Assembly (NCBI GenBank): GCA_945787595.1 | Contig: CALZJV010000183.1 | Coordinates: 1 to 17,124, forward strand | Source of the DNA: an uncultured Desulfobacterales bacterium | Lineage (GTDB): Bacteria > Desulfobacterota > Desulfobacteria > Desulfobacterales > JAFDCJ01 | DNA length: 17,124 nucleotides | Direction of reading: 5' to 3' | Shown here: positions 11,214 through 16,946 of the stretch, piece after piece | Layout: every line of letters starts with the position of its first letter | Position numbering within the stretch: position 1 is the stretch's first letter | Made by a program: the position numbers and the translations under genes | Notes under the pieces: generated by a model | Databases searched by the model: none | Seen by the model: only the letters and a program-made list of their open reading frames with translations | What the model was told of the DNA's origin: nothing

Positions 11214-11230
11214 TCCGGCTTCCAGCCGGA
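11214..11230 (-). promoter_or_regulatory. SECIS-like hairpin for the C-terminal UGA, also terminator-like
   Basis: On the minus strand a 7-bp perfect stem TCCGGCT / AGCCGGA encloses a 3-nt loop GGA. It starts 14 nt after the second in-frame UGA (11245-11247) and lies beyond the UGA stop at 11236-11238. A G at the start of a small apical loop fits bacterial SECIS elements, although spacing is about 3 nt longer than in fdhF. The stem is preceded by a T-run and followed by ATTTTC, so it may also end transcription. Confidence 0.5.
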
Positions 11231-11235
11231 AAAAA

Positions 11236-11463
11236 TCATACCCCTCAGGTATCGCCCTCAAAACCGATGGTCACTGTTTCTCCTTCGACAATGACCGGAA
11301 CTTTGCGCGTTCCATTGGAGTACTGTAACATGGTGTCAAAATGATCGGTCTCTTTTACGACATTATAATATTCGACCTGGCGTCCTTCCTTGGCAAATGC
11401 TGCACGAGCTGCCCGGGTATAGGGTCAGGCATCCTTTCCGAAAATCAAGACTTCAGCAGGCAT
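11236..11463 (-). CDS. Glutaredoxin-like selenoprotein with two in-frame UGA (Uxx-star type)
   Basis: A 75-residue thioredoxin-fold redox protein, readable only if UGA is decoded as selenocysteine. It begins MPAEVLIFGKDA-U-PYTRAA. The UGA (11425-11427) is residue 13, exactly where glutaredoxins have the nucleophilic Cys of CPYC. The frame continues through a beta strand (QVEYYNVV), the KVPVIV cis-proline motif and VTIGFEGDT to a second UGA (residue 73, 11245-11247). That is followed by Gly-Val and a UGA stop, giving U-G-V-stop. As I recall, this ending is what the family name Uxx-star refers to. The ATG at 11463 has an excellent ribosome-binding site (AGGAAGGAGGG). Hairpins follow both UGA codons at SECIS distance, and a good promoter lies upstream. 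A pseudogene with a chance stop is less likely given the fit. Cytoplasmic; partner and substrate unknown. The selA/B/C/D genes are not in the window. Confidence 0.85.
11392..11413 (-). promoter_or_regulatory. SECIS-like hairpin for the first UGA
   Basis: Minus strand: 11 nt after the UGA at 11425-11427, GGCA (11413-11410) pairs with TGCC (11395-11392). Inside, GCT pairs with AGC around a CGTGC loop, leaving a 3-nt bulge on the 3' side. The 11-nt spacing and the G near the start of the apical loop match the bacterial SECIS of E. coli fdhF. Confidence 0.6.
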
Positions 11464-11544
11464 TTTTCCCTCCTTCCTGTTTGGTGGGTATGGCATAGGA
11501 TATACAGTTTTAATTTTCAGTGATTGCAGTTATTTATCGGAAAG

Positions 11545-11636: not shown

Positions 11637-11918
11637 ATGGTGACAAAAGGGCAAAAAGCATATAAGGTTGCAACGATTAAAAATGAGCTCGGATTGCACG
11701 CCCGGTCGGCTGCGCAGATTGCCCACATCGCCGCTAAGTCCGCAGCCGGTGTCCGGCTAAAAAAGGATGATAAAATGGCCGATGCATCCAGTATCATTGA
11801 TATATTAACCCTGGCATGCGAGAAGGGAACAAAAATAACGATTATCATTGAGGATTTGGCGGATATCAACATTTTAGACGCCATTGTCGATCTCGTTGAT
11901 AGCGGATTTGGGGAATAA
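11637..11918 (+). CDS. ptsH: HPr-like phosphocarrier protein
   Basis: A small cytoplasmic phosphocarrier, 93 residues, accepting a phosphoryl group from enzyme I on a histidine. The active-site block reads ELGLHARSAAQIA, with the phosphorylatable His but Ser in place of the near-invariant Pro of GLHARPA. The regulatory-serine region is DASSIIDILTLACEKG, where Gram-positive HPr has KSIMGVMSLG, so a Ser is present at the equivalent place. The protein ends in the usual helix AIVDLVDSGFGE. The ATG at 11637 has a clear ribosome-binding site. It precedes the enzyme I gene by 6 nt in one operon. With no EII gene nearby the pathway may be regulatory, or it may serve a mannose-type EII elsewhere. Confidence 0.92.
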   Translation: MVTKGQKAYKVATIKNELGLHARSAAQIAHIAAKSAAGVRLKKDDKMADASSIIDILTLACEKGTKITIIIEDLADINILDAIVDLVDSGFGE

Positions 11919-11924
11919 GCATAA

Positions 11925-13688
11925 ATGTTGGAACCAGTTGTTGAAGAAAAAACGCTTAAAGGCATCAGTGCATCACCCGGTATTTGCATCGGAAAGGCCT
12001 ATCTGGTGTATAAAGAAGGGGTGGATGTCGTAAAAAAGTATTTTCTCAAAGGGGAAAAAATAAAGGGTGAGGTGAATCGTTTCAATGCTGCCGTAAAAAA
12101 AGCAAAAGATGAAATCCGCACCATCATCGAAAACAGCCCGGAAGAACTGCAACGGGCCCATATTCTTGAAACCCACCTGGCAATGCTGAATGATAAAATG
12201 CTATATGGAAAAACCATTGAAATCATTGAAACGGAGGGTGTCAACGCCGAATGGGCGCTTAAAAAGGTCGTGTCAAATTTAAATTCGATTTTTCAGAATA
12301 TGGTCGACTCCTATCTGAAGGAACGGGCCTTGGACGTGGTCCATGTATCGGACAGCATCATGCGCAACCTGGTGGGGGTTGAATCCGAAGATATCGCTGC
12401 CATTGATAAACGGGTCATCCTGGTATCGGACGATCTGTCTCCGGCGGACACCAGTCGAATAAACCTGGCACGAATTATGGGTTTTATAACCAATCGCGGC
12501 GGAAAAACCTCCCATACCGGGATCATGGCCCAGGCCCTTGAAATCCCGGCCATCGTCGGTCTGGTCAATGCAACCACCGTAATCAAAAACGAAGATCTCA
12601 TCATCGTCGATGGAGGTACCGGCAAGGTTATCGTCAACCCCAGCGAACAGTCTCTGGTAGAATATGAAGTACGGAAAGTTCAATATGAAGATTTCAAGGT
12701 GGGTATCACCCAGGATAGCCATCTTAAAGCGGAAACAACCGATGGTGTCCAACTGGAGGTAATGGCAAATATTGAGCTACCGGAGGAAGTTTTCGCGGTG
12801 AAGGACTATGGAGGGGACGGTATCGGTCTTTATCGCACGGAATTTCAATATATGAATCGCCCAGAATTTCCAAGCGAGCAAGAACTATTTGACAAGTACC
12901 GGGATGTGGTCGAGGTCATGGCCCCCAAATCCGTCACCATTCGCACCTTGGACATAAATGGCGACAAGGCGCTAGCCAATCACAGCAGCTACAGCGAAAT
13001 CAATCCGGCCCTCGGACTTCGCGCCATACGGTATTGTTTGAGAAAACCGGATGTGTTTAGGACCCAGCTTCGTGCGATTTTAAGGGCGGCCGCCTTCGGC
13101 AGCGTCCGTATATTGTTTCCCATGATATCAGCCTATTTCGAAATTTGTAAGGCCAAAAAGTTATTGGACCAGGCCGCTGAATCGCTTGAAAAAGAAGGTC
13201 TGTCTTATAACCGCGAGATTGACATCGGAATCATGATCGAAGTTCCCTCGGCAGCGGTTATAGCGGATTTATTGGCGGAAAAAGTCGATTTTTTCAGTAT
13301 CGGCACAAACGATCTTATCCAGTATACCCTGGCGATCGACAGGGGCAATCGACATGTGGCCGATCTTTATCAACCCCTGGATCCGGCGATTATCCGCATG
13401 ATCAAACATGTGGCGGATGTGTCCAAGGACAAAGGCATCGGCTTGTTCATATGCGGCGAGATGGCGGCCACGCCCCATCACATCCCGCTGCTGCTTGGCA
13501 TGGGCATGGATGAGTTGAGTATGAACCCGCAATCAATTCCGCAGATCAAACGGGTAATTCGCTCTCTGAACGTCAAAGATGCCCAGTCATTCGTCCGGGA
13601 AGCCTTGACAATGAGAACCGCCAGAGGGGTTTTCGAATTGTCGAGGGATGCATTCGGTGACATGCTTTCGGAAGTGACGTTCTCCTGA
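11925..13688 (+). CDS. ptsI: PTS enzyme I, phosphoenolpyruvate-protein phosphotransferase
   Basis: Transfers phosphate from PEP to HPr. The 587 residues match the family length. The N-terminal domain begins KGISASPGICIGKAYL. The phospho-histidine domain has GGKTSHTGIMAQALEIPAIVG (usual form TSHTAIMAR, so Ala to Gly and Arg to Gln next to the active His). The C-terminal TIM-barrel PEP site shows GGDGIGLYRTEFQYMNR, FSIGTNDLIQYTLAIDRGN and the catalytic Cys in ICGEMAATPHHIPLLLGMGMDELSMNP. No NTR-type GAF domain precedes it, so it is a classical EI rather than PtsP. It starts 6 nt after ptsH. No EIIA, EIIB or EIIC gene is seen before the gap at 13689. Confidence 0.95.
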   Translation: MLEPVVEEKTLKGISASPGICIGKAYLVYKEGVDVVKKYFLKGEKIKGEVNRFNAAVKKAKDEIRTIIENSPEELQRAHILETHLAMLNDKMLYGKTIEIIETEGVNAEWALKKVVSNLNSIFQNMVDSYLKERALDVVHVSDSIMRNLVGVESEDIAAIDKRVILVSDDLSPADTSRINLARIMGFITNRGGKTSHTGIMAQALEIPAIVGLVNATTVIKNEDLIIVDGGTGKVIVNPSEQSLVEYEVRKVQYEDFKVGITQDSHLKAETTDGVQLEVMANIELPEEVFAVKDYGGDGIGLYRTEFQYMNRPEFPSEQELFDKYRDVVEVMAPKSVTIRTLDINGDKALANHSSYSEINPALGLRAIRYCLRKPDVFRTQLRAILRAAAFGSVRILFPMISAYFEICKAKKLLDQAAESLEKEGLSYNREIDIGIMIEVPSAAVIADLLAEKVDFFSIGTNDLIQYTLAIDRGNRHVADLYQPLDPAIIRMIKHVADVSKDKGIGLFICGEMAATPHHIPLLLGMGMDELSMNPQSIPQIKRVIRSLNVKDAQSFVREALTMRTARGVFELSRDAFGDMLSEVTFS

Positions 13689-14711: not shown

Positions 14712-15065
14712 GGGGGCGAAACGGCTTCGACGGGGATAAAGAAGCTTAGACTGCATACCGAGCTCCTGTCGGCTCGTTAAAATGACGGGACCTAAACATA
14801 ATCGCAGATGATTATGAATATGCTCTGGCTGCATAAATAGCCAGCGCTCTGCCGGGTTAATCCTGCGGATCCGGCAAGAGCGTCGACTAGCGGGATAGTT
14901 GGTACCGGCTGCCCGTAACGGTACCGGCGAAACTTTAGCGGGATAGCCGGTTGAGTATCCAGCCTGGAGGAGACTTAAACGGCGAAATCTAAAGTTCAGG
15001 ATAAGTATGTAGATGTTTAAGTGGAATGTTTTCGGACGCGGGTTCGACTCCCGCCGCCTCCACCA
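14712..15065 (+). ncRNA. ssrA: Transfer-messenger RNA (tmRNA)
   Basis: Rescues stalled ribosomes with SmpB and tags the nascent chain for proteolysis. The 5' end GGGGGCGAAACGGCTTCGAC is the near-universal tmRNA start. The 3' end has the T-arm GCGGG-TTCGACT-CCCGC, then GCCTCC, the discriminator A and an encoded CCA (15063-15065). The 5' GGGGGC pairs with 3' GCCTCC, with one G-U, to form the acceptor stem. About 354 nt, one-piece form. The tag frame is at 14804-14836. The 3' end doubles as an attachment site: its last 25 nt recur at 17018. Confidence 0.97.
14804..14836 (+). other. tmRNA tag peptide reading frame
   Basis: The resume codon GCA at 14804 opens a frame reading A-D-D-Y-E-Y-A-L-A-A followed by TAA (14834-14836). 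The ALAA ending is the usual ClpXP degron, and the ADDY start resembles deltaproteobacterial tags. Confidence 0.88.
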
Positions 15066-15466: not shown

Positions 15467-16411
15467 ATGCGGCCAATTGTTTCAGAACAGGATTTTTTAC
15501 GTTATCCATTGAATGAATTGTTCGGCACCCGAGCCCATGTAAGACTGCTCAGGGTCATGGCAAATCAAGTTGATGGCCCGCTTGCCGCGTCGGATGCCGC
15601 CAAACGTGCCGGATTGACGGTGCCCGGCGCCCAAAAAGCACTTGGCAGACTTTTACGGTCGGGGTTCATCTCTCGCGTGGGTGGCGGTCGAAAACACCAG
15701 TATGAAATTCGGTTTTCGGACAGGCTCATGCAGATCGTATTAGCGCTGTTTCAGGCGGAAAAGGATCGACATGAACAACTGATCAGTAAAATTAAAACAG
15801 AAGTTGAGAACCTTAAACCCTATCCCTATGCAGCATGGATTCAAGCGCCCCCCAAAGAAGTTGGGGAGCCACTTACATTAGGATTGTTACATGAAACCCG
15901 GCATCTGACGAATTGCGTTCAACAATTGAGGGCAAGGCTCAACCTGGTGGAAAATGATTTCGATCTAACGATTGAAGTTGAGGGTTATACAAAAGCGGAT
16001 ATTTTCGATCATACGCATGATGAGGTTACCGTTCTGTATGGAGTCTTGCCATCAACGAATAGCCCTACACGACGGCATGCAACCCCACTGACACACAAAG
16101 AAAAGAATCGACGGTTGGACGCAATCTCGCGTAAGTTGGCTAAAGCCATCGAACAGGATTCTTCGCTCTTGGTGCGGGCAAAAGCGCATATCGATCGTTT
16201 GCTAAAAGAAGATCCAGGAACGGCCACCAAAGATTTAATGGAATGGCGTGACATCCTCGATTTGTACTCCCTACAGCGTCTGTCCAGGTTTTTCACCTCC
16301 TCCAGTGAACGAGCCAATCGTCTGCGCCAAAGCAACCCTTTTTTTGCCGTTTTAAACGCTGATGAACGGTCTCGGCTGACCCATGATATGGAGAGTAACA
16401 ATGACACGTGA
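15467..16411 (+). CDS. Winged-helix protein, putative regulator/antitoxin of a nucleotidyltransferase pair
   Basis: A 314-residue cytoplasmic protein. Residues about 18-85 form a winged helix-turn-helix (FGTRAHVRLLRVMA, SDAAKRAGLTVPGAQKALGRLLRSGFI, wing VGGGRKHQYEI). Residues about 110-195 (GEPLTLGLL..., DLTIEVEGYTKADI) loosely recall a nucleotidyltransferase-like fold but lack a GS...DxD catalytic site. The C-terminal part is helical and charged (KNRRLDAISRKLAKAI, then SERANRLRQSNPFFAVLN). Its stop overlaps the next gene by 11 nt, so the two are translationally coupled. Position upstream of a nucleotidyltransferase, behind a palindromic operator, suggests an autoregulating antitoxin-like partner. 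That role is inference; I do not recognise a named family for the full length. Confidence 0.75.
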   Translation: MRPIVSEQDFLRYPLNELFGTRAHVRLLRVMANQVDGPLAASDAAKRAGLTVPGAQKALGRLLRSGFISRVGGGRKHQYEIRFSDRLMQIVLALFQAEKDRHEQLISKIKTEVENLKPYPYAAWIQAPPKEVGEPLTLGLLHETRHLTNCVQQLRARLNLVENDFDLTIEVEGYTKADIFDHTHDEVTVLYGVLPSTNSPTRRHATPLTHKEKNRRLDAISRKLAKAIEQDSSLLVRAKAHIDRLLKEDPGTATKDLMEWRDILDLYSLQRLSRFFTSSSERANRLRQSNPFFAVLNADERSRLTHDMESNNDT

Positions 16412-16946
16412 TCAGCTTGAACACGCAATCCGGGCAGCCTGTGATGTCTCAGAAGATACCGAGTTGTGGATATTCGGATCTCAAGCAATTCTGGGAGAAT
16501 TTCCAGACGCGCCGAAAAGTCTTCGTGCATCTATCGAAGTGGATGTCCAGCCAAAGAATCGACCTGAAAGAACCGATGATGTCGATGGTTCCCTGGGAGA
16601 GTTGTCTATTTTCCATCAAACGCATGGCTTCTATGTGCATGGAATATCCATTGAATCTGCAAAACTTCCTGACGGTTGGGAACAGAGAACGGTATCAGTC
16701 AGTGATCCGATCTCGACACGGGGCAAGACCGGTTTATGTGTTCAGGCGCACGATCTTGCTGCCAGCAAGCTTGCTGCCTACAGGGAAAAGGATAAAGAAT
16801 TTGTCCGTCAGCTTCTTATCGAGAAAATGATCGATGCAAACATCCTTATGGAGAGAATAAGCGCACTTGATTTGAAAGAACAGTTGCGAAAGCGTCTTCA
16901 TTATTGGCTTAAAATAACCGCAGAAGAATTGTACGGTTCAGAATAG
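16401..16946 (+). CDS. DUF6036-type nucleotidyltransferase, putative toxin or effector
   Basis: A 181-residue protein. I recognise the pattern of the widespread DUF6036/AbiEii-like nucleotidyltransferases: ELWIFGSQAILGEFPDAP (GS motif, about residues 20-37), then SIEVDV as the acidic strand, DDVDGSLGELSIFHQTHGFY, and VQAHDLAASKLAAYREKDKEFV towards the C-terminus. The ATG at 16401 is preferred over an in-frame ATG at 16383 because GGAGAG precedes it at suitable spacing and the family start fits. It overlaps the winged-helix gene by 11 nt. AbiEii-type enzymes act in type IV toxin-antitoxin and abortive-infection pairs by transferring nucleotides to tRNA or other targets. Whether this member does so is unknown, as DUF6036 proteins are mostly uncharacterised to my knowledge. 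Confidence 0.75.
   Translation: MTRDQLEHAIRAACDVSEDTELWIFGSQAILGEFPDAPKSLRASIEVDVQPKNRPERTDDVDGSLGELSIFHQTHGFYVHGISIESAKLPDGWEQRTVSVSDPISTRGKTGLCVQAHDLAASKLAAYREKDKEFVRQLLIEKMIDANILMERISALDLKEQLRKRLHYWLKITAEELYGSE

Follow-up and report, generated by a model that had tools for sequence, protein, structure and literature searches.

A glutaredoxin-fold member of UXX-star selenoprotein family 1 with UGA at codons 13 and 73, from a bacterium close to Desulfosarcina

The locus and its neighbours

The window (the whole stretch of DNA that was analysed, 17,124 nt) carries on its minus strand a short gene of UXX-star selenoprotein family 1 with two in-frame UGA codons. The gene starts at an ATG (11463-11461), and the closest in-frame stop upstream of this ATG is 69 nt away. 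The features of the locus are the following:

11236 to 11463, minus strand: selenoprotein gene, UXX-star selenoprotein family 1; 75 aa with Sec13 and Sec73, UGA stop included
11469 to 11475, minus strand: Shine-Dalgarno sequence AAGGAGG, 5 nt before the ATG, read from the sequence
11425 to 11427, minus strand: UGA codon 13 (Sec, in the UPYT motif)
11392 to 11413, minus strand: first bacterial-SECIS-like hairpin, inside the coding region, with the loop CGUGC at 11402-11406, taken from the fold
11245 to 11247, minus strand: UGA codon 73 (Sec, third residue from the C terminus)
11236 to 11238, minus strand: UGA stop, codon 76, three codons past UGA73
11214 to 11230, minus strand: second bacterial-SECIS-like hairpin, UCCGGC-UGGAA-GCCGGA, past the stop codon
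11637 to 13688, plus strand: HPr (11637-11918) and PtsI (11925-13688), divergent neighbours outside the selenoprotein gene, named from their translations

Translated from 11463 to 11236, the minus strand reads MPAEVLIFGKDA-U-PYTRAARAAFAKEGRQVEYYNVVKETDHFDTMLQYSNGTRKVPVIVEGETVTIGFEGDT-U-GV, then the UGA stop, with the motifs UPYT at residues 13-16, KVPVIV, and GDT-U73-GV-stop at the end. The original prediction, which left the strand unstated, had described a frame read through UGA behind a strong ribosome-binding site, with a cis-Pro motif KVPVIV downstream, in a region that looks empty to standard ORF calling. All of these elements were recovered on the minus strand: the frame has 75 residues with UGA at codons 13 and 73, AAGGAGG provides the ribosome-binding site, and KVPVIV is present (the cis-Pro was read from the motif). 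Across 11236-11463, no minus-strand ORF of at least 60 aa was listed, and a single plus-strand ORF of 60 aa (11341-11523) overlapped the gene.

A search of genome contigs returned 97 stretches encoding a relative. The best 80 of the 97 were kept, all of which were used in the counts, and together with the window they make up a set of 81 sequences. Upstream of the selenoprotein gene and divergent from it lie genes for HPr, PtsI, and SmpB, as read from their translations. HPr was matched in 23 of the 80 loci, always divergent and 78-615 nt upstream of the gene start; PtsI was matched in the same 23 loci and SmpB in 17 of 80. All 23 HPr/PtsI loci fall among the nearer, Desulfobacterales-like relatives (L001-L031). 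On the downstream side is a gene for a GAF-PAS-LuxR regulator, for which 14 of 80 loci gave a match: ten had 61-87% identity, and L032, L037, L047, and L075 had weak partial matches only. It is followed by a branched-chain amino acid transport cluster and an acyl-CoA ligase, both read from translations. Because many loci are short, missing neighbour matches say little. A connection between the selenoprotein and PTS signalling is no more than a lead.

Further along the plus strand, a tmRNA gene (14712-15065; Rfam RF00023; tag ADDYEYALAA) follows the putative smpB and was found by two tools. After the tmRNA come two overlapping genes at 15467-16946 (plus strand), the first with weak matches of the DUF7342/MarR type and the second with a match to a DUF6036 nucleotidyltransferase; PADLOC returned weak matches only for the first and none for the second. 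As a guess, the two may form a toxin-antitoxin-like pair carried by an element that has inserted at the tmRNA.

Family membership and fold

The gene product matched NCBIfam NF041114.2 ("UXX-star selenoprotein family 1") over residues 5-75 with 102 bits, against a curated cut-off of 72, and it also passed the parent model NF041212 (81 bits, cut-off 66). The NCBIfam, Pfam, solved-structure, protein-database, and genome-relative queries contained 76 letters, with C standing for the stop UGA as well; when the NCBIfam scan was repeated with the 75-residue form, the NF041114 score was 102.1 bits. All 46 aligned members (46 of the 81 sequences) matched NF041114 at E ≤ 1e-6. The Pfam glutaredoxin model PF00462 was matched with 38.4 bits (cut-off 22.9). 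The window gene thus belongs to an already catalogued family, UXX-star selenoprotein family 1, and is not a new kind. The original prediction had called the selenoprotein hidden, and plain ORF calling does miss the gene; the prediction was made without knowledge that the family had already been named and modelled (NF041114).

Length, the UxxT site, the two Sec, and the position of one Sec third from the end are all shared with UXX-star family 1 (NF041114, also "Distant Grx-like protein 1"). We found no difference between the window gene and this family, of which it is an additional, Desulfosarcina-like member. UXX-star families 2 and 3 and the HUGP/GUXX-star fusion (NF041211, NF047338, and NF045501) gave weak matches of 51, 46, and 41 bits, far below their respective cut-offs of 100, 97, and 325 bits. 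The active-site motif of classical glutaredoxins is CPYC. The window protein shares with them (PF00462; Grx3, NrdH) the fold, the KVPVIV region, and a structure match, but it has UPYT for CPYC as well as a C-terminal Sec tail, and it scored below the cut-offs of the NCBIfam Grx3 and NrdH models. A selenoprotein glutaredoxin, as it appears in excerpts of PMC13188914, also has Sec in the glutaredoxin active-site motif, but with UxxC and one Sec, whereas the window protein has UxxT and a second, C-terminal Sec.

The same excerpts of this 2026 review (PMC13188914) enter UXX-star family 1 as UxxT with 2 Sec and state that the roles of the UXX-star family need further study. "Distant Grx-like protein 1" is given with UxxT in an excerpt of PMC9312934. 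In the rows for Grx and Grx-like proteins available from PMC2398784, which PMC13188914 cites for "Distant Grx-like", the motif is UxxC, and the phrase "distant grx" was not found in the main text of that paper. A protein search of a plasmid collection gave no match, and a search of solved structures by sequence gave only weak glutaredoxin matches (best E 0.0043).

An AlphaFold2 model of residues 1-75, with Cys in place of Sec and an alignment of 46 of the 81 sequences, showed a glutaredoxin fold (mean pLDDT 85.7, pTM 0.69). Its best PDB match was the glutaredoxin 3ic4 (TM 0.78 over the query). In the model, residue 13, predicted to be Sec, sits at the glutaredoxin nucleophile position.

The pattern used to locate the members accepted U, C, S, or W at position 13, with position 73 restricted to U or C; all 81 were found, and the same reading frame was present in all 80 kept relatives (the best 80 of 97). 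The original prediction had named an absence of homologues with Cys or Sec at residue 13 as evidence that would count against it. Such homologues make up the whole set: Sec stands at this position in 76 of 81 sequences (UGA) and Cys in five (UGC in four, UGU in one). Codon 73 was UGA in 81/81, so that Sec73 is more constrained than Sec13 (81/81 vs. 76/81). The closest relative among the best 80 of 97 was L001, a Desulfosarcina MAG, which is 77% identical. The tree, built on 72 columns and with many unresolved forks, places the window gene beside L001 (support 100/85).

SECIS-like hairpins after UGA13 and UGA73

In the published bacterial SECIS model, the loop lies 16-37 nt after the UGA and has a G in its first two positions. 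The first hairpin of the window agrees with this model, with the loop CGUGC 18 nt after UGA13. The hairpin that had been predicted 11 nt after this codon exists, its stem starting exactly there when 39 nt from UGA13 are folded; folding 45 nt instead adds outer pairs. It is, however, the first of two, the second lying beyond the stop. The upper stem of hairpin 1 has only three pairs before a bulge in the window, or seven pairs when the lower stem is counted.

With the U of UGA13 numbered 0, the upper stem pairs positions 18-20 with 26-28. Among the 76 members with Sec at position 13, pair 18-28 was Watson-Crick in 67 and G-U in six, and pair 19-27 was Watson-Crick in all 76. Pair 20-26 was standard in 75 of these 76 (74 Watson-Crick, one G-U) vs. 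one of the five with Cys at position 13 (Fisher P = 1.5e-5, relatedness not controlled). This pair links two codon wobble sites, and the Ala/Glu codon combinations were GCU-GAA in 23, GCC-GAG in 11, and GCC-GAA in one; on the tree, its U-A label requires seven changes and its C-G label 11. Conservation did not extend to the lower stem, whose four pairs were each Watson-Crick in only 22-29 of the 76, and the conserved part of hairpin 1 in the family is the upper three pairs only. These three pairs together with a G at loop position 1 or 2 were found in 68/76 Sec13 members and in 0/5 Cys13 members; the G was missing from both positions in 6/76 Sec13 members.

The five Cys13 members (L008, L042, L054, L055, and L066) all keep UGA at codon 73. 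They occupy three places in the tree, which has few columns: L008, L055, and a group of L042, L054, and L066. Pairs 18-28 and 19-27 were kept in all five, but the Ala codons would keep both anyway. A G was present early in the loop in two of five, and the sole standard pair 20-26 was that of L066, whose loop is without the early G. Judged from these pairings, the Cys13 members are a small natural control (n = 5), in which Cys at position 13 goes with a degraded first hairpin.

The second hairpin of the window has its loop, UGGAA, 20 nt after UGA73 and likewise agrees with the SECIS model. A model hairpin with at least four pairs followed UGA73 in 77/81 members. A hairpin score of at least 12 was reached in 77/81, vs. 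50/433 other stop codons in the same loci, these controls being stops of stop-to-stop frames of at least 200 aa that may include shadow frames. No hairpin 2 was found under the looser model in four of the 81 (L018, L019, L020, and L054). When the search was anchored on a 5-nt loop of the form N-G-[G/U]-N-N, 71/81 fit with at least three pairs and 10/81 did not. In these 71, each of pairs 1-5 was standard in 66 to 71 and occurred as three to six standard pair types; pair-type counts, in which kinship is ignored, thus show variation in pairs 1-5 that appears compensatory. The counted stem (at most 10 pairs) started at least 1 nt past the stop in 64/71 and abutted or overlapped the stop in 7/71.

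The loop of hairpin 2 lay 17-25 nt after UGA73 in the 77 members with the hairpin; in the 42 members that have UGA as stop, the loop followed this stop at a distance of 8-13 nt. Thus, only UGA73 lies within the 16-37 nt range of the model, a distance that arises partly by construction because hairpin 2 was sought only 15-36 nt (looser search) or 14-27 nt (anchored search) after UGA73. Among the 80 relatives, 41 use UGA as the stop, compared with 141 of 413 further ORFs at these loci (Fisher P = 0.005, relatedness not controlled); as a stop three codons after UGA73, UGA is at least not avoided. In the excerpts of PMC8659212, nothing was found on stop spacing.

Alternative readings, decoding, and proposed role

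We consider it highly probable (approximately 95%) that the gene encodes a family 1 glutaredoxin-fold protein with two Sec, from a bacterium close to Desulfosarcina (Desulfobacterales), and that both UGA codons are decoded via their own conserved hairpins. The original prediction of a glutaredoxin-like protein with UGA at the nucleophile position is supported by the family match, by the codon counts in the 81 sequences, and by the hairpin pairing.

A 72-residue protein with a single Sec would result if UGA13 were read as Sec and UGA73 were mostly a working stop, the last codons being rarely reached. The downstream stop is indeed only three codons past UGA73, but codon 73 is invariant although that stop varies (UGA in 42, UAA in 32, and UAG in seven of the 81 members). 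In addition, the residues between codon 73 and the stop are mostly Gly-Val or Gly-Ile, and a conserved, compensating hairpin follows UGA73 at SECIS distance. We therefore regard the single-Sec protein as very unlikely.

The two UGA codons could also be decay in a glutaredoxin pseudogene, in keeping with plain ORF calling, which breaks the gene and leaves no minus-strand ORF of at least 60 aa. However, both UGA codons occupy identical sites in relatives from Thermodesulfobacteriota, Nitrospirota, and Acidobacteriota. In comparisons with seven relatives of the same length, dN/dS was 0.10-0.22 overall and 0.11-0.21 for the segment flanked by the two UGA codons. In 80/81 members, no in-frame stop other than the two UGA sites was present between the ninth codon ahead of codon 13 and the end of the gene; L049 had one more UGA. 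We rejected decay on the conserved UGA sites and the dN/dS, and we consider it extremely improbable. The gene is confirmed as real by these comparisons, which also indicate purifying selection with both UGA codons kept in frame.

The third in-frame UGA of L049 lies at the otherwise conserved Gly9 site (codon 9), nine bases before the codon preceding the UGA13 region. It may be a sequencing error, decay, or another recoding.

For the Sec machinery, whose complete absence from the genome the original prediction had also named as contrary evidence, the search covered the genomes of nine relatives, namely, L001, L002, L004, L005, and the five Cys13 loci. The four Sec13 relatives (L001, L002, L004, and L005) have selA, selB, selC, and selD. 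Over all nine genomes, selA and selB were over cut-off in 9/9 and selC and selD in 8/9; in the L008 genome (2.2 Mb), no selD and no selC were over cut-off. Among 14 control genomes, those over cut-off numbered one for selA, two for selB, two for selD, and five for selC, the last of which makes selC the least specific search. The best selD match in L001, L002, L004, L005, L042, L054, L055, and L066 contains one internal UGA, so that in these genomes selD, too, seems to encode a selenoprotein.

The protein database search found 221 relatives, of which 120 were listed. Among the matches listed, 24 of 26 relatives were written with W at both UGA sites, and the other two of 26 had Cys at position 13 and ended before codon 73. 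On these counts, the gene is often misread in databases. The W in public gene predictions is what would be expected if the host read UGA as Trp and made a protein WPYT...W, but we rejected this as having almost no chance of being correct: where codon 13 is not UGA, it is always a Cys codon, UGG occurs in 0/81 at codons 13 or 73, relatives have the four sel genes, and UGA ends about one-third of the other ORFs in the same loci (141/413, as given above).

For the two-Sec protein, the known biology of Sec decoding suggests that SelB and Sec-tRNA would decode UGA13 with the hairpin in the coding region and UGA73 with the hairpin past the stop. The stop UGA at codon 76 would stay undecoded because it is too close to hairpin 2. 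Sec13 would act as the nucleophile of UPYT; with Thr at residue 16, its partner would lie outside this motif. Sec73, in the C-terminal tail that follows the final long strand, may be the resolving selenol for Sec13 or a second metal or metalloid ligand. The protein is likely a selenol oxidoreductase or a metal-binding protein in which Sec13 and Sec73 would act together.

The gene adds independent evidence for a double selenoprotein, one overlooked by plain ORF calling, in a family that has a name. What we observed beyond this (the apparent SECIS loss beside Cys13, the second SECIS-like hairpin past the stop, and the conserved ptsHI-smpB neighbours) may already be in print. The wobble pair of hairpin 1 is lost in 4/5 Cys13 members, and the second putative SECIS, being past the stop, is mostly free of coding constraint; in both respects, the family offers a clean test of bacterial Sec decoding. 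More doubtful, and put forward tentatively, is the idea that one hairpin, which in most members lies past the stop, must drive Sec insertion at UGA73 while a UGA just nine bases further on, the stop of about half of the members, terminates the protein, with the third UGA perhaps sometimes being read. If this were true, then the family would be a natural yardstick for how distance by itself keeps Sec decoding apart from termination.
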